Below are positions 3,721-21,105 of a stretch of 39,891 bases of DNA, piece by piece; position 1 is the first letter of the stretch; every line of letters starts with the position of its first letter. The stretch is from Spirochaetales bacterium (GTDB lineage Bacteria > Spirochaetota > Spirochaetia > SZUA-6 > JAFGRV01), in contig JAFGRV010000297.1 of assembly GCA_016934975.1 (NCBI GenBank), positions 1 to 39,891 of the forward strand, given 5' to 3'. A program made the translations under genes and the position numbers. Under the pieces are notes generated by a model. It saw only the letters and a list, made by a program, of their open reading frames with translations. It did not search any database and had not been told where the DNA came from.

Positions 3721-5095
3721 ATTGAAAGGGATTATCAGCACATAACCGGAATCCCTCTTTTGTTAATGGCAGCGGTTTTTTCATTGAACAGGAAGTCCAT
3801 ATATCAACCTTGTCTTTATGGAATGTATACTCCAGTTTTCCTTTCCAGGAAGTAGCTTCATTTATAAAAAGACTGTTTTGTAGTGAAAGGCTGTGGTTTT
3901 GTTTACACCATTCGAATCCCGCGGTTATTTTTGTTTCAAAGGTTGATGTTTCATCGATTGAAAGAGAAATCGCACTCTCTATTTCTATTTCCGGGTTTGT
4001 ATACCCGAATGCCAGGGTGAGTTCATGAGTTTCTTCTTTTGTATTGTTTTCATCAAAGGACAGGGATGATTTTTCACGGACCATGAGGTCGATTTCCTCT
4101 TTTTTTCTCAGGGTGTGAGCTGCCGTCAGTTTTCCATCGATAGTGTTTGATGTGTCAAGATGATCCCGGGGAACCGGGGAGGGATGATTAATATCAAGAT
4201 AAACCATGAGTTCTCCTTTTAACCACGCAACCGGCGACCACTGAACCGACCCCCCGGTGCGGACCATTTTCTCTGTGGATGACCCCCCGGGTGTCACATA
4301 AGAGGGGGAACAATAGCCGAAGACGGAAGAGAGGGTGACTTTATTAAGCATGGCTGCTATATAACTATGGATAAAAAATCCCGGGATGATGAGATCCCCC
4401 GCCGAAAGGCTCCCGGAGATTGATATTTCCAGATGGTGTGTTTGAAGACGATTTTTCATGGAAAGATGTGAGAGTGTACCGTCGGGAAACTGATGTTTCG
4501 GTGAAAACCAGGAATCCACGGGAGCGGGCTGTAAAGGCCGGGATAGGGAGAGGAGGAGGTCTGTTTTTAAACTCTCCCGGCAGGTAAGACTGACCTTTGT
4601 CCCGAAAAAATAAGGAACGTCCTCCCCTGTTTGAAAAAAGAGGGAGCACATATCCGGGATGAGGATGAGATTAAGAAACCTTTTGGGGCCTGGTTCAAAG
4701 GTTTTTTTTAGTCGTAATTCCGTCTTTTCCTGATAAACCGCACTCTGTGGAGAGTATCCCAGGGGATTGTTGATTTCCGTAAAAAGCCCGCAGGTATACA
4801 TCGGTCCGAAGGAAAAAAGGAAAGTGGTAATGCCGAAAGTAAGGTGATGTTCTTCCGTGGTCTTTGATTCATCTATAAGAAATAAGGCAAGATTGTCCAT
4901 GGCATAATAAAGCCGGACCCTGAATTCCGAGTTTTCATGTATCTCGCAATGCATGCTTTGGGCTTCTTCCGTAAAACCGGGGGTACTCCATAATAAAAGA
5001 AAGAATATCATAGGTGAAATCATGATTATTTGTTTTTTCATAGGGGAAGATGTGCAAAACCCGTGCCGTAAAATTGATTCGAAAGGCCTCCTCAT
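3683..5095 (-). CDS. Hypothetical secreted/outer-membrane beta-rich protein
   Basis: Signal peptide-like start (MKKQIIMISPMIFFLLLWSTPGFTEEAQS) within the ORF, then alternating beta-strand character and C-terminal aromatic-rich strands. Confidence 0.6.
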   Translation of the reverse strand: MRRPFESILRHGFCTSSPMKKQIIMISPMIFFLLLWSTPGFTEEAQSMHCEIHENSEFRVRLYYAMDNLALFLIDESKTTEEHHLTFGITTFLFSFGPMYTCGLFTEINNPLGYSPQSAVYQEKTELRLKKTFEPGPKRFLNLILIPDMCSLFFQTGEDVPYFFGTKVSLTCRESLKTDLLLSLSRPLQPAPVDSWFSPKHQFPDGTLSHLSMKNRLQTHHLEISISGSLSAGDLIIPGFFIHSYIAAMLNKVTLSSVFGYCSPSYVTPGGSSTEKMVRTGGSVQWSPVAWLKGELMVYLDINHPSPVPRDHLDTSNTIDGKLTAAHTLRKKEEIDLMVREKSSLSFDENNTKEETHELTLAFGYTNPEIEIESAISLSIDETSTFETKITAGFEWCKQNHSLSLQNSLFINEATSWKGKLEYTFHKDKVDIWTSCSMKKPLPLTKEGFRLCADNPFQFIFFSIGFSVSS

Positions 5096-5689: not shown

Positions 5690-5717
5690 TTGACATCCTC
5701 ATTTTTTTGCATAGAAT
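5690..5717 (+). promoter_or_regulatory. Sigma70-type promoter of the tRNA-like/structured RNA segment
   Basis: TTGACA (5690-5695), 16 nt spacer, TAGAAT (5712-5717); expected TSS ~5724. Confidence 0.65.
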
Positions 5718-5739: not shown

Positions 5740-5824
5740 GTAAGCTTACCGGGCAAGGATTTCCGTATGGTCCTGCAGTGCTTTCCGCCTTGAAAGAGTC
5801 GCGGGAAAGTATGCTGAAGCTTAC
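5740..5824 (+). ncRNA. Predicted structured 5' domain of the tRNA-like transcript
   Basis: GTAAGCTT (5740-5747) pairs with AAGCTTAC (5817-5824), enclosing hairpins GC(A)AGGA/TCCTGC and CTTTCCGC/GCGGGAAAG. Confidence 0.4.
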
Positions 5825-5834
5825 GTGAATGCAA

Positions 5835-5876
5835 ACTAGCCGAACGGATGACAGGGGTTCGATTCCCCTATTAGTG
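5835..5876 (+). ncRNA. tRNA-like module 1 (canonical T-arm, no anticodon arm)
   Basis: T-arm AGGGG-TTCGATT-CCCCT (5853-5869) followed by acceptor-like ATTAGTG. Only 13 nt (CCGAACGGATGAC) lie between the 5' acceptor-like ACTAG and the T-arm. Confidence 0.6.
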
Positions 5877-5878
5877 TA

Positions 5879-5942
5879 AACTGATTCGTCTAGTGGCAGG
5901 ACATTCGTTTCCAAAAGTGAAGGTTCGAATCCTTCATCAGGC
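5879..5942 (+). ncRNA. tRNA-like module 2 (D-arm plus T-arm, reduced anticodon region)
   Basis: AACTGAT-TC-GTCTAGTGGCAGGAC (D-arm), short TTCGTTTCCAAAAGT region, T-arm GAAGG-TTCGAAT-CCTTC (5919-5935), acceptor strand ATCAGGC (5936-5942). Confidence 0.65.
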
Positions 5943-5946
5943 TTCG

Positions 5947-5990
5947 GCCTGATTGGCGGAACGGTAGACGCAATAGACTGATAATCTATC
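5947..5990 (+). ncRNA. tRNA-like module 3 (5' half: acceptor strand, D-arm, intact anticodon arm with GAT; no downstream T-arm)
   Basis: GCCTGAT-TG-GCG(GAACGGTAGA)CGC-A-ATAGA(CTGATAA)TCTAT: 3-bp D stem, 5-bp anticodon stem, 7-nt loop with T33 and anticodon GAT. Confidence 0.65.
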
Positions 5991-6274
5991 TTTTTACGTG
6001 TAAGTGGCGGTAAAGAAGGGTTGGTCTTCCATGAAGGCTTCGGCTTTTGTGTAAGAACAATTGTATGTGCTTTGCAGGAAGGCGGATGATGGATCCGGCC
6101 ATCCGGCTGCGGCTTGCGGGAAACAGGTATGGTGACCCGGCATATTCAGGTGCCGGGAGGCATAGGTGTTGAACATGGCCCCAACCGGAAAAGAGGTTTC
6201 CACCCCCCTTGCTCCGTACATCCGATTGAGACCCTCTTTACTTCCGCTTATTTTTATGAAACCAGGAGGACCGG

Positions 6275-7378
6275 ATGATTATAAAGAATGATGAACGGGG
6301 ATTATTATTTAAAGACGGGAGTTATGTAAAACACCTGAAACCGGGGAATTACTTTTATTTCGGTTCTCATAAGAATAAAATAACAGTTCTCGATGTGAAT
6401 AAACCCTTTGAAACGGAAAAGGATATTTCGGTTTTTCTGGGAGATGAGGAGCTTAAAAAAGAACTTGATATCCTTGATGTCAGGGATAATGAGATAGCTC
6501 TTTATTATCAGGATGGGAAATTTGTGAGGATTTATACCTCCGGGAAATATGCCTTCTGGAATGTATTAAAAAAGAATACCTTTAAAATCCTCGACAAGAA
6601 TAACCCCGAGTTGGATGATACAATTGAACGCTCTTTGTTTTCTCATCCGGCTTTCGCCAATCGTTACACTCTCCTGGAAGTCTTTAATTTTGAGAAAGGA
6701 CTTCTCTTCTATAATAATACCTTCCAAAAATTACTCGATCCCGGGAGATATTATTTTTTAAACGGGAATATCGCCGTTACCGCGCTAAAAGCGGATCTGC
6801 GGCGTCAGCAAATGGATGTGGCGGGGCAGGAGATCATGACGGAAGATAAAGTCACTTTGCGCCTTAATTTTGTCTGTCATTTTGTCATTGTAGATCCCAT
6901 AAAGACCTATCTTGAGACAAAAGATTTCCAGACTCAGGTTTATAATCTGCTCCAGCTCATTTTACGGGAGTATGTAGGGTCCATGAAACTGGACGAGCTG
7001 CTGCGGAAGAAAAAAGAGATCGGGGATTTTGTTCTTGAACAGCTGAAGCAGCAGAGTGACGTATTTGGTATCGAGTTTCTCTTTGCCGGATTAAAGGATG
7101 TGATTCTTCCCGGTGAAATCAAGACTATTTTAAACACGGTGATTCTGGCGGAAAAAAAAGCCCTGGCAAATGTCATTACACGAAGGGAAGAAACGGCATC
7201 TACCCGGAGTCTTTTAAATACCGCAAAATTGATGGATGAAAACAAAACCCTCTACCGCTTAAAAGAATTTGAAGTCCTGGAAAAGATCTGTGAAAAAATA
7301 GGAAATATTTCCCTTATGGGAGGGGGATCTTTGATTGAGCATTTGAGCGCCCTTTTTACTGCCCGGAAAGAGGAATAA
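6275..7378 (+). CDS. SPFH/Band-7 domain protein (slipin family)
   Basis: Stomatin/slipin-type features: two N-terminal repeats (NDERGLLFKDGSYVKHLKPGNYFYF / FEKGLLFYNNTFQKLLDPGRYYFL), then DVAGQEIMTEDKVTLRLNFVCHFVIVDPIKTY...LQLILREYVGSMKLDELL and ...FGIEFLFAGLKDVILPGEIKTILN. RBS aggagg. Confidence 0.92.
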   Translation: MIIKNDERGLLFKDGSYVKHLKPGNYFYFGSHKNKITVLDVNKPFETEKDISVFLGDEELKKELDILDVRDNEIALYYQDGKFVRIYTSGKYAFWNVLKKNTFKILDKNNPELDDTIERSLFSHPAFANRYTLLEVFNFEKGLLFYNNTFQKLLDPGRYYFLNGNIAVTALKADLRRQQMDVAGQEIMTEDKVTLRLNFVCHFVIVDPIKTYLETKDFQTQVYNLLQLILREYVGSMKLDELLRKKKEIGDFVLEQLKQQSDVFGIEFLFAGLKDVILPGEIKTILNTVILAEKKALANVITRREETASTRSLLNTAKLMDENKTLYRLKEFEVLEKICEKIGNISLMGGGSLIEHLSALFTARKEE

Positions 7379-19560: not shown

Positions 19561-21105
19561 ATGGATAGTATAGGGAGAATAGAACAAATATACAAAGATT
19601 ACGCGCCTTCACTTGTCCGGCGTATTAAATGGTATTTTCCAAATGATTCTTTTTTAGTCGATGATATTTTACATGAAATATTTATATCTTTAATCAAGAA
19701 AAAAATGAAACTTGATTTAGGCGAAAGAATCTTTGTTTATCTGCATAATGCTGTCAGGTTTAAATGCCTGGATATAATAAAAAAAAATAAAAAACGTACT
19801 ATAATAATTAATTCAGAAATAATTGACCTTGTTATAGATCCAAAGGTTCATACTGAACAAGCGATTGTTACAAAGGATTACATTAAAAACATACTTCAAT
19901 TTTTAAAACCAAAATATCGCTTATTATTTATGTTGCGGTTTATCAATCAATATAAAAGAAAAGATATCGCCGAGATGCTGAACAGACCGGAAAATACTAT
20001 TAAAAAGCAGATTCAAAAGATACGTTCCATATTACAAAAATCATTGGAAAGAGATTTGTCAAATATTAAATCTGATATTAAAATGATAATTCTTGATTCC
20101 TGTCATTCCGGTGCTTTTATACAGGCAAAGGGTGGGAGCTTTTATCCTCCTTTTTTAACAACATATAAAACGAGCGGGTATGTCTACTTAACATCCTGTA
20201 CTGCGGATGAAAACTCATATGAATCGGAAAGCATTGAATATTCTCTTTTTACCTTTTCATTATTACTGGGATTAAGGGGGGCGGCAGATTCAAATAACGA
20301 TGGTAATATCACATTGAATGAACTATACCAATTTGTTTTTAATGAAACCTTGAATCAGGCAGAGAAAATTACCTCTCAAATGCAGCATCCTTCATATAAG
20401 ATTAAATTAACCGGCACAGGGGATGTCATTATCACTAATATTCATCAAAATACATCACGCCTTATTATCAAGCCGGAAATCAGGGGAAATGTCATTATCA
20501 AAGATTCATTCAACAATATTATTGTTGATATAGAAAAAAGAAATGAAAAACCATTAGAGATATTTCTTATTCCAGGTGAATATTTTTTTTCCGTATATTT
20601 CAAGGATAAAAAATATAGTAAGAAATTTCGTATCAAAATCAATGACATACAGGAAATAGCTTCTTTAAAGGATTTGGATAGAATAGACCAAAATAAGAAT
20701 GGGGTCAAAGGAGAAACCGCGGACCGCATCAGCATACACTTGACCGGTGTCTATGCCATACCCCTTTCGGAAAATCTGAACACCGAAGTAAAAGGCTTTG
20801 CCGGGTGCAGTCTCCAGGCAGGTTTTACTTTACTGGAATTCGGATTACTGATTTTTAACGTCACTGCCGCCGGGAGTTGTCTGTATCACCCGGAAATAAA
20901 TTCTGCCTCGAACGTGAAAAGTATGTTTATCGCCACCGGAGTAGCAGGTGGTGGAATAGGGCTTGATTTCGGCAGCATCCAACCATTTCTTAACATCGCA
21001 GGGGGTGTATCTTTTTCGGTTGTTGACAGCAGGTTTTATGATCGAACCTTTATCCTCCCCAATCCATCACTGCTGGGTGAACGCAGATGGAACCTGGGGA
21101 AGTAG
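19561..21105 (+). CDS. In-frame chimera: ECF-type sigma factor / C-terminal part of caspase-like peptidase / truncated beta-rich domain
   Basis: aa 1-~165: sigma region 2 and 4 (YKDYAPSLVRRIKWYF...DDILHEIFISLIKKK; LKPKYRLLFMLRFINQYKRKDIAEMLNRPENTIKKQIQKIRSILQ). Then KMIILDSCHSGAF...GYVYLTSCTADENSYES..YSLFTFSLLLGL (caspase Cys motif and p10-like), then a PEGA-like and barrel-like tail. Confidence 0.75.
   Translation: MDSIGRIEQIYKDYAPSLVRRIKWYFPNDSFLVDDILHEIFISLIKKKMKLDLGERIFVYLHNAVRFKCLDIIKKNKKRTIIINSEIIDLVIDPKVHTEQAIVTKDYIKNILQFLKPKYRLLFMLRFINQYKRKDIAEMLNRPENTIKKQIQKIRSILQKSLERDLSNIKSDIKMIILDSCHSGAFIQAKGGSFYPPFLTTYKTSGYVYLTSCTADENSYESESIEYSLFTFSLLLGLRGAADSNNDGNITLNELYQFVFNETLNQAEKITSQMQHPSYKIKLTGTGDVIITNIHQNTSRLIIKPEIRGNVIIKDSFNNIIVDIEKRNEKPLEIFLIPGEYFFSVYFKDKKYSKKFRIKINDIQEIASLKDLDRIDQNKNGVKGETADRISIHLTGVYAIPLSENLNTEVKGFAGCSLQAGFTLLEFGLLIFNVTAAGSCLYHPEINSASNVKSMFIATGVAGGGIGLDFGSIQPFLNIAGGVSFSVVDSRFYDRTFILPNPSLLGERRWNLGK

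Follow-up and report, generated by a model that had tools for sequence, protein, structure and literature searches.

A conserved Spirochaetota RNA with a permuted, capped tRNA-like domain that usually precedes a slipin-type gene

A contig of 39,891 nucleotides (nt) from a Spirochaetales bacterium (assembly GCA_016934975.1, contig JAFGRV010000297.1; its whole length is referred to here as the window) carries, upstream of a gene for a slipin-type SPFH/Band-7 protein, a locus whose product is almost certainly a conserved non-coding RNA in which a transfer RNA (tRNA)-like domain is permuted and capped. Relatives of this RNA are present in 13 other Spirochaetota genomes, and because across the phylum they usually precede a slipin gene, the element is regarded as a real RNA and as neither a broken nor a permuted tRNA gene. 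The explanation that we favour, with modest confidence and from sequence comparison, is that it would be a Ro60-independent RNA shaped like the bacterial Y RNA YrlA and a member of the SPFH-linked 'tRNA-like molecule' class, i.e., a structured RNA that belongs with the slipin scaffold and that may have a trans role in tRNA repair. The observations that we take as established concern its architecture, its covariation, its genetic linkage, the absence of Ro60, and the linkage of a slipin orthologue with rtcR.

In the window, where all the features described below lie on the forward strand, the RNA contains two modules with the same order of parts: T-arm, 3' acceptor strand, a tight loop, 5' acceptor strand and D-arm. 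Module A (5844..5908), which shows covariation and the topology of the YrlA domain, consists of a T-arm (5853-5869), an acceptor helix (5870-5875/5880-5885) capped by GUAA (5876-5879), and a D-arm (5888-5902); the stem at the position of the anticodon stem (5844-5848/5904-5908) connects the module to the remaining RNA and no anticodon loop is found there. Module B (5919..5989) is a second permuted domain, with a T-arm (5919-5935), an acceptor helix (5936-5942/5947-5953) capped by UUCG (5943-5946), a D-arm (5956-5971), and a closed anticodon-like arm with GAT in its loop (5973-5989); its 5' half is Leu-like. Because the acceptor is capped in both modules, no free CCA end is possible. The arms of the modules resemble the tRNA-Glu and tRNA-Leu of the same genome. 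This second, nearly complete module sets the window copy apart: a complete module B was found solely in the window, and a second T-arm is also present in four of the related genomes (G415, G534, G528 and G559).

The original prediction had described neighbouring tRNA-like modules whose acceptor strands pair with each other, and these pairings were verified base by base. As it had claimed, ATCAGGC (5936-5942) forms seven out of seven pairs with GCCTGAT (5947-5953) across TTCG, and only five out of seven with its in-line partner AACTGAT (CTGAT, 5881-5885, with ATCAG, 5936-5940). The pairing proposed between the first and second modules also holds, as six out of six pairs, one of them G.U, between ATTAGT (5870-5875) and ACTGAT (5880-5885); however, the gap of 2 nt assumed between these strands is, together with the flanking G.A, the GNRA tetraloop that caps module A. 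Joining 5919-5942 to 5947-5989 yields the expected cloverleaf, with an acceptor of 7 base pairs (bp), a 5-bp arm with GAT in its loop and a 5-bp T-arm; its D-arm is short, with three good pairs. AAAAG/CTTTT was considered as a stem that would close module B and set aside, given that it gains little energy and competes with a possible variable-arm-like helix (5991..6016) between TTTTTAC (5991-5997) and GTAAAGA (6010-6016), which is proposed from sequence and energy.

The same letters allow an alternative in-line tRNA reading (5881..5940), which cannot form at the same time as the permuted pairings. For the permuted helices of both modules the sum is -37 kcal/mol, versus -15 to -18 kcal/mol for in-line modules 1 and 2, and the corresponding values are -41 versus -23 to -26 kcal/mol when the shared 3' helices are added. 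The Rfam tRNA model RF00005 matches the in-line reading at 32.3 bits (threshold 29), a match that joins the D-arm of module A to the T-arm of module B without a proper anticodon arm; likewise, ARAGORN reported 0 tRNA genes in the window RNA, i.e., a canonical in-line cloverleaf with an anticodon arm was not recognised. On these two grounds a canonical tRNA was rejected.

By chance, a 7/7 hairpin would follow straight after a T-arm with a probability of about 0.006, and one with at least 6/7 pairs with a probability of about 0.06. Since chance is only mildly unlikely, and since identical tandem tRNA genes pair alike, the pairings of the window taken alone are suggestive evidence for a permuted module and the homologues have to decide. 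Tandem genes that are close together and near-identical are trivially complementary between neighbours in this way. With R1, a covariance model built from modules A and B of the window and the RNA of G003, pairs of tandem tRNA-Glu genes reach 42-54 bits; R1 matches elsewhere in the class were such pairs and were discarded, and a match in G010 (40-46 bits) corresponds to two near-identical tandem tRNA-Met genes. The tandem tRNA-Glu duplications of this class (L087-L095) are a trap for programs that search for permuted tRNAs.

A related RNA was found upstream of the slipin orthologue of G003, which belongs to the same family; it has one T-arm, then one D-arm, and an acceptor capped by UUUUU. R1 independently recovered a copy in G001 (55 bits) with a GCAA cap, and R2, a model of the larger unit built from the window, G001 and G003, recovered 11 full-length copies, scoring 39-85 bits, in further classes of Spirochaetota. 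In the resulting set of 14 sequences (the window, G001, G003 and the 11 copies found with R2), 37 of the 42 pairs show double-sided changes, and all seven acceptor pairs and all five pairs of the 'anticodon stem' covary. Paired cells reach 93.8% versus 66.5% in shuffled alignments, and the covariation score is 0.728 versus 0.222, a value attained by 0/500 shuffles, with slid partners giving 0.05-0.16; these figures are somewhat inflated by the fact that the alignment was fitted to the structure of the model, but the positions of the caps and the independent Rfam model of YrlA agree with it. The caps are GNRA loops in 10 of the 14 copies (UUCG in module B of the window), and in nearly all homologues the acceptor is closed by a short loop, mostly GNRA, with no CCA and no spacer. 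The permuted order and the neighbour pairing are consequently borne out, in that both have been kept by covariation across the phylum and the compensatory changes in the Spirochaetota homologues support pairing between neighbours and not only in-line cloverleaves.

In-line units or readings do exist, in Photobacterium, in Burkholderia (by eye), in the window (the RF00005 match) and in G534. In this last genome (L136 / L125), ARAGORN calls the D-arm of the permuted module and a second, downstream T-arm a tRNA-Arg(tct); members of the family can therefore be mis-called as tRNAs, and annotation pipelines may list them as such. Apart from the stray tRNA match in the window, no Rfam 15 entry reaches threshold with the family, and the 11 distant copies correspond to no Rfam family at threshold. 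A DNA similarity search in relatives, phages and plasmids gave no match beyond the sequence itself, and a pattern scan of a genome collection matched only in two Spirochaetales contigs (Zod_Metabat) from metagenome-assembled genomes (MAGs).

Alignment of the RNAs from the window, G001 and G003 exposed a common three-way junction at the 5' side of the permuted domain (5740..5824 in the window), which covaries in these three as well as in the 14 sequences and takes part in full-length model matches of 111-121.5 bits. All eight pairs of its P1 helix (5740-5747/5817-5824) are double-compensatory across the three RNAs; the partners of this helix were initially hand-picked, and the identical helix was later recovered in the distant copies. 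P2 (5753-5755 and 5757-5761 with 5769-5776) has in the three RNAs a fixed bulge, at 5756 in the window, and a loop of 7 nt, while P3 (5778-5782/5808-5812) starts with GUGC and ends with GUAU. Upstream of the junction there is a sigma-70-type promoter, TTGACA-16-TAGAAT (5690..5717), with 11/12 consensus matches and a likely RNA start at ~5724. Sigma-70-like promoters occur at a near-equal distance in the RNAs of the window, G001 and G003; 8 of the 14 homologues, window counted, have a -35-like element (TTGAC/TTGCA) 45-57 nt upstream of P1, and it is accompanied by a good -10 in the window, G001, G003 and G419. The 3' part of the RNA in the window includes a hairpin, AAGGC-UUCG-GCUUU (6034..6047), identified from the sequence, and the homologues have other strong hairpins there. 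The 3' motif RGATACCG (with at most one mismatch to GGATACCG) is present in 11 of 13 copies and is not clear in the window; it is probably a further conserved element of the RNA, and in the homologues it sits ~80-200 nt past the D-arm.

The gene that follows the RNA in the window (6275..7378) encodes a slipin-type protein of 367 residues with a Band-7 domain (Pfam PF01145, E 4.3e-24) and a stretch of ~135 residues at the N-terminus that matches no Pfam family. An SPFH/slipin gene follows the RNA in 11 of 13 testable loci: in 10 verified Spirochaetota loci, the window included, a Band_7 gene lies downstream in the same orientation, with its start 170-430 nt from the RNA and a product of ~367-393 residues, and in G528 the N-terminus of a slipin is present before the contig ends. 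G415 was left out of the count since its locus cannot be judged. It is very probable that the RNA and slipin are associated as a system. Elsewhere in the window (19561-21105), an open reading frame combines a match to sigma-70 region 4 with a weak caspase-like (Peptidase_C14) match.

The association seems to extend beyond the phylum. Five full-length slipin orthologues with 34-44% identity, from Citrobacter, E. coli, Burkholderia, Subdoligranulum and Photobacterium, all have a T-loop sequence within ~600 nt upstream, which occurs in shuffled sequences with a frequency of 0.002-0.006 each. The upstream sequence of Photobacterium matches the R3 model with 43 bits and contains two in-line tRNA-like units; that of Burkholderia fits the P2-P3 descriptor and, by eye, also has two in-line units. 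In one in-line unit of Burkholderia (L146, ~4656-4730), the anticodon loop seems by eye to be replaced by a GAAA tetraloop (GCCGGC-GAAA-GCCGGC). In Citrobacter (L144) the gene order is rtcR, slipin and a nucleotidyltransferase, and the slipin-nucleotidyltransferase pair is found again in E. coli (L145); the leaders of both contain a single T-arm sequence and no RNA is annotated in them. An SPFH protein of P. aeruginosa that may or may not be of the same subfamily, PaFlo8, is encoded in the rtc locus (PMC13086221), and loss of the repressor TrcR in Anabaena strongly induces both a slipin gene and rtcB (PMC10272220). PADLOC assigned no defence family to slipin, and among the papers covered by a literature search there was no co-mention of tRNA-like with SPFH or slipin.

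According to the explanation that we favour, an RNA of probably 300-500 nt would be made from its own promoter and would consist of the conserved three-way junction at the 5' side and, after it, one permuted tRNA-mimic domain, or two in the window genome. It would resemble the elbow and the acceptor of a tRNA without a chargeable CCA end and, in module A, without an anticodon loop, and it could act in trans as the partner of an SPFH membrane scaffold in the response to tRNA damage or its repair, either presenting or tethering tRNA-binding enzymes or serving as an uncleavable decoy, a role suggested for YrlA (PMC7790460). As to whether it acts in trans in RNA damage or its repair, our opinion is evenly balanced. 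More tentatively, Ro60-independent YrlA-shaped RNAs might be dedicated partners of SPFH/slipin proteins, with a membrane SPFH assembly carrying a capped mimic on which tRNA-repair or tRNA-cleaving enzymes dock; the interlocked acceptors of the window, and perhaps of G534, could then switch between in-line and permuted forms.

Besides the fitting of the alignment, several points weigh against this explanation. The genomes are incomplete MAGs, and the modules reach only partial probability in RNAfold alone. The window copy gives no match to the YrlA model, and the match to the 5' domain is not clear in Citrobacter and E. coli. A Pfam search confined to proteins of the window identified no rtc gene. 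Moreover, in most genomes the RNA lies upstream of slipin in the same orientation, as would a cis-acting leader.

Such a leader is the main rival, and one that we consider rather unlikely. The RNA would be the 5' untranslated region of the slipin mRNA, refolding upon tRNA or RNA damage to control slipin expression; the orientation and spacing in the 10 Spirochaetota loci, the fact that no terminator was found between the RNA and the slipin gene in the window, and the mutually exclusive in-line and permuted pairings would all fit this role. Nevertheless, the RNA of G001 is free-standing, in convergent orientation to another gene, with a hairpin bearing a U-tract after it, while the slipin gene of that genome is located elsewhere with no RNA beside it; the RNA of G419 is also free-standing, and the next long open reading frame is on the opposite strand. 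A further possibility is that the element is an ordinary YrlA bound by an unrecognised Ro60-like protein. The topology of the domain is the same, and the Rfam YrlA model (RF02553) matches 13 of the 14 copies with 28-49 bits over the tRNA-like domain, in the same order, all of them below the Rfam gathering threshold (69 bits). However, no Ro60 (TROVE) gene was detected in 15 genomes, 14 of which carry the RNA, or in 26 from the order, with Deinobacterium as a positive control, and this, together with the extra three-way junction and the linkage to slipin instead, makes it very improbable.

The two remaining rivals had both been raised by the original prediction. Decayed or internally deleted tandem tRNA genes would account for the likeness of the arms to the tRNA-Glu and tRNA-Leu of the genome, and tandem tRNA pairs imitate the pairing; indeed, it is plausible that the permuted order arose by loss of the outer halves of such a pair. 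As a description of the present element this is highly improbable, because the covarying conservation over 14 genomes, which includes a 5' domain unrelated to tRNA, and the conserved linkage to slipin argue against decay. Hardly any credence is left for a true permuted tRNA gene, whose circular precursor would mature into a functional tRNA by opening at the acceptor, since the order of the halves and the complete permuted cloverleaf of module B are outweighed by GNRA, UUCG or other short caps in nearly every homologue, with no CCA, no intervening segment and no splice motif noticed, and by the embedding of the module in a larger conserved RNA, in which module A has no anticodon loop and connects to the conserved upstream domain. 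Among the alternatives initially offered, a rigid multi-hairpin tRNA mimic comes closest.

The covariation indicates that YrlA's tRNA-mimic fold also occurs in the absence of Ro60, travelling with SPFH/slipin. This suggests two parallel ribonucleoprotein platforms for RNA damage, one formed by TROVE proteins with Y RNA and the other by SPFH proteins with a tRNA-like RNA, and it gives a little-understood branch of the bacterial SPFH proteins a concrete RNA partner that can be tested.

Several known systems share parts of this architecture. The permuted tRNA genes of algae and archaea have the same order of halves; the slipin-linked RNA differs in its capped acceptor, in that processing signals were not seen, and in the position of the module within a larger RNA. 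In transfer-messenger RNA (tmRNA, RF00023) and its permuted form (RF04321) the T-arm and the 3' acceptor strand also precede the 5' acceptor strand; however, the match is confined to the T-arm (12.7 bits), and a tmRNA was rejected on this ground and because the genome has a separate, canonical tmRNA (151 bits). YrlA is a closer counterpart, being a permuted tRNA mimic with a T-arm, a capped acceptor hairpin, a D-arm and, where the anticodon stem would be, a stem leading into the remainder of the molecule. It differs in that it is an RNA of 90-150 nt closed by an end-to-end, Ro60-binding stem, which as far as seen does not appear to be the case for the slipin-linked RNA, whereas the latter has a 5' three-way junction, a slipin partner gene and no Ro60/Rsr. 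Finally, Burroughs and Aravind reportedly named in 2016 SPFH/Band-7 modules with a novel tRNA-like molecule as scaffolds of RNA repair. That account may or may not already cover the permuted shape with its cap, the 5' domain and the range across Spirochaetota; their molecule resembles ours in being a tRNA-like RNA linked to SPFH/Band-7 proteins, and here a slipin orthologue is found beside rtcR and a nucleotidyltransferase.
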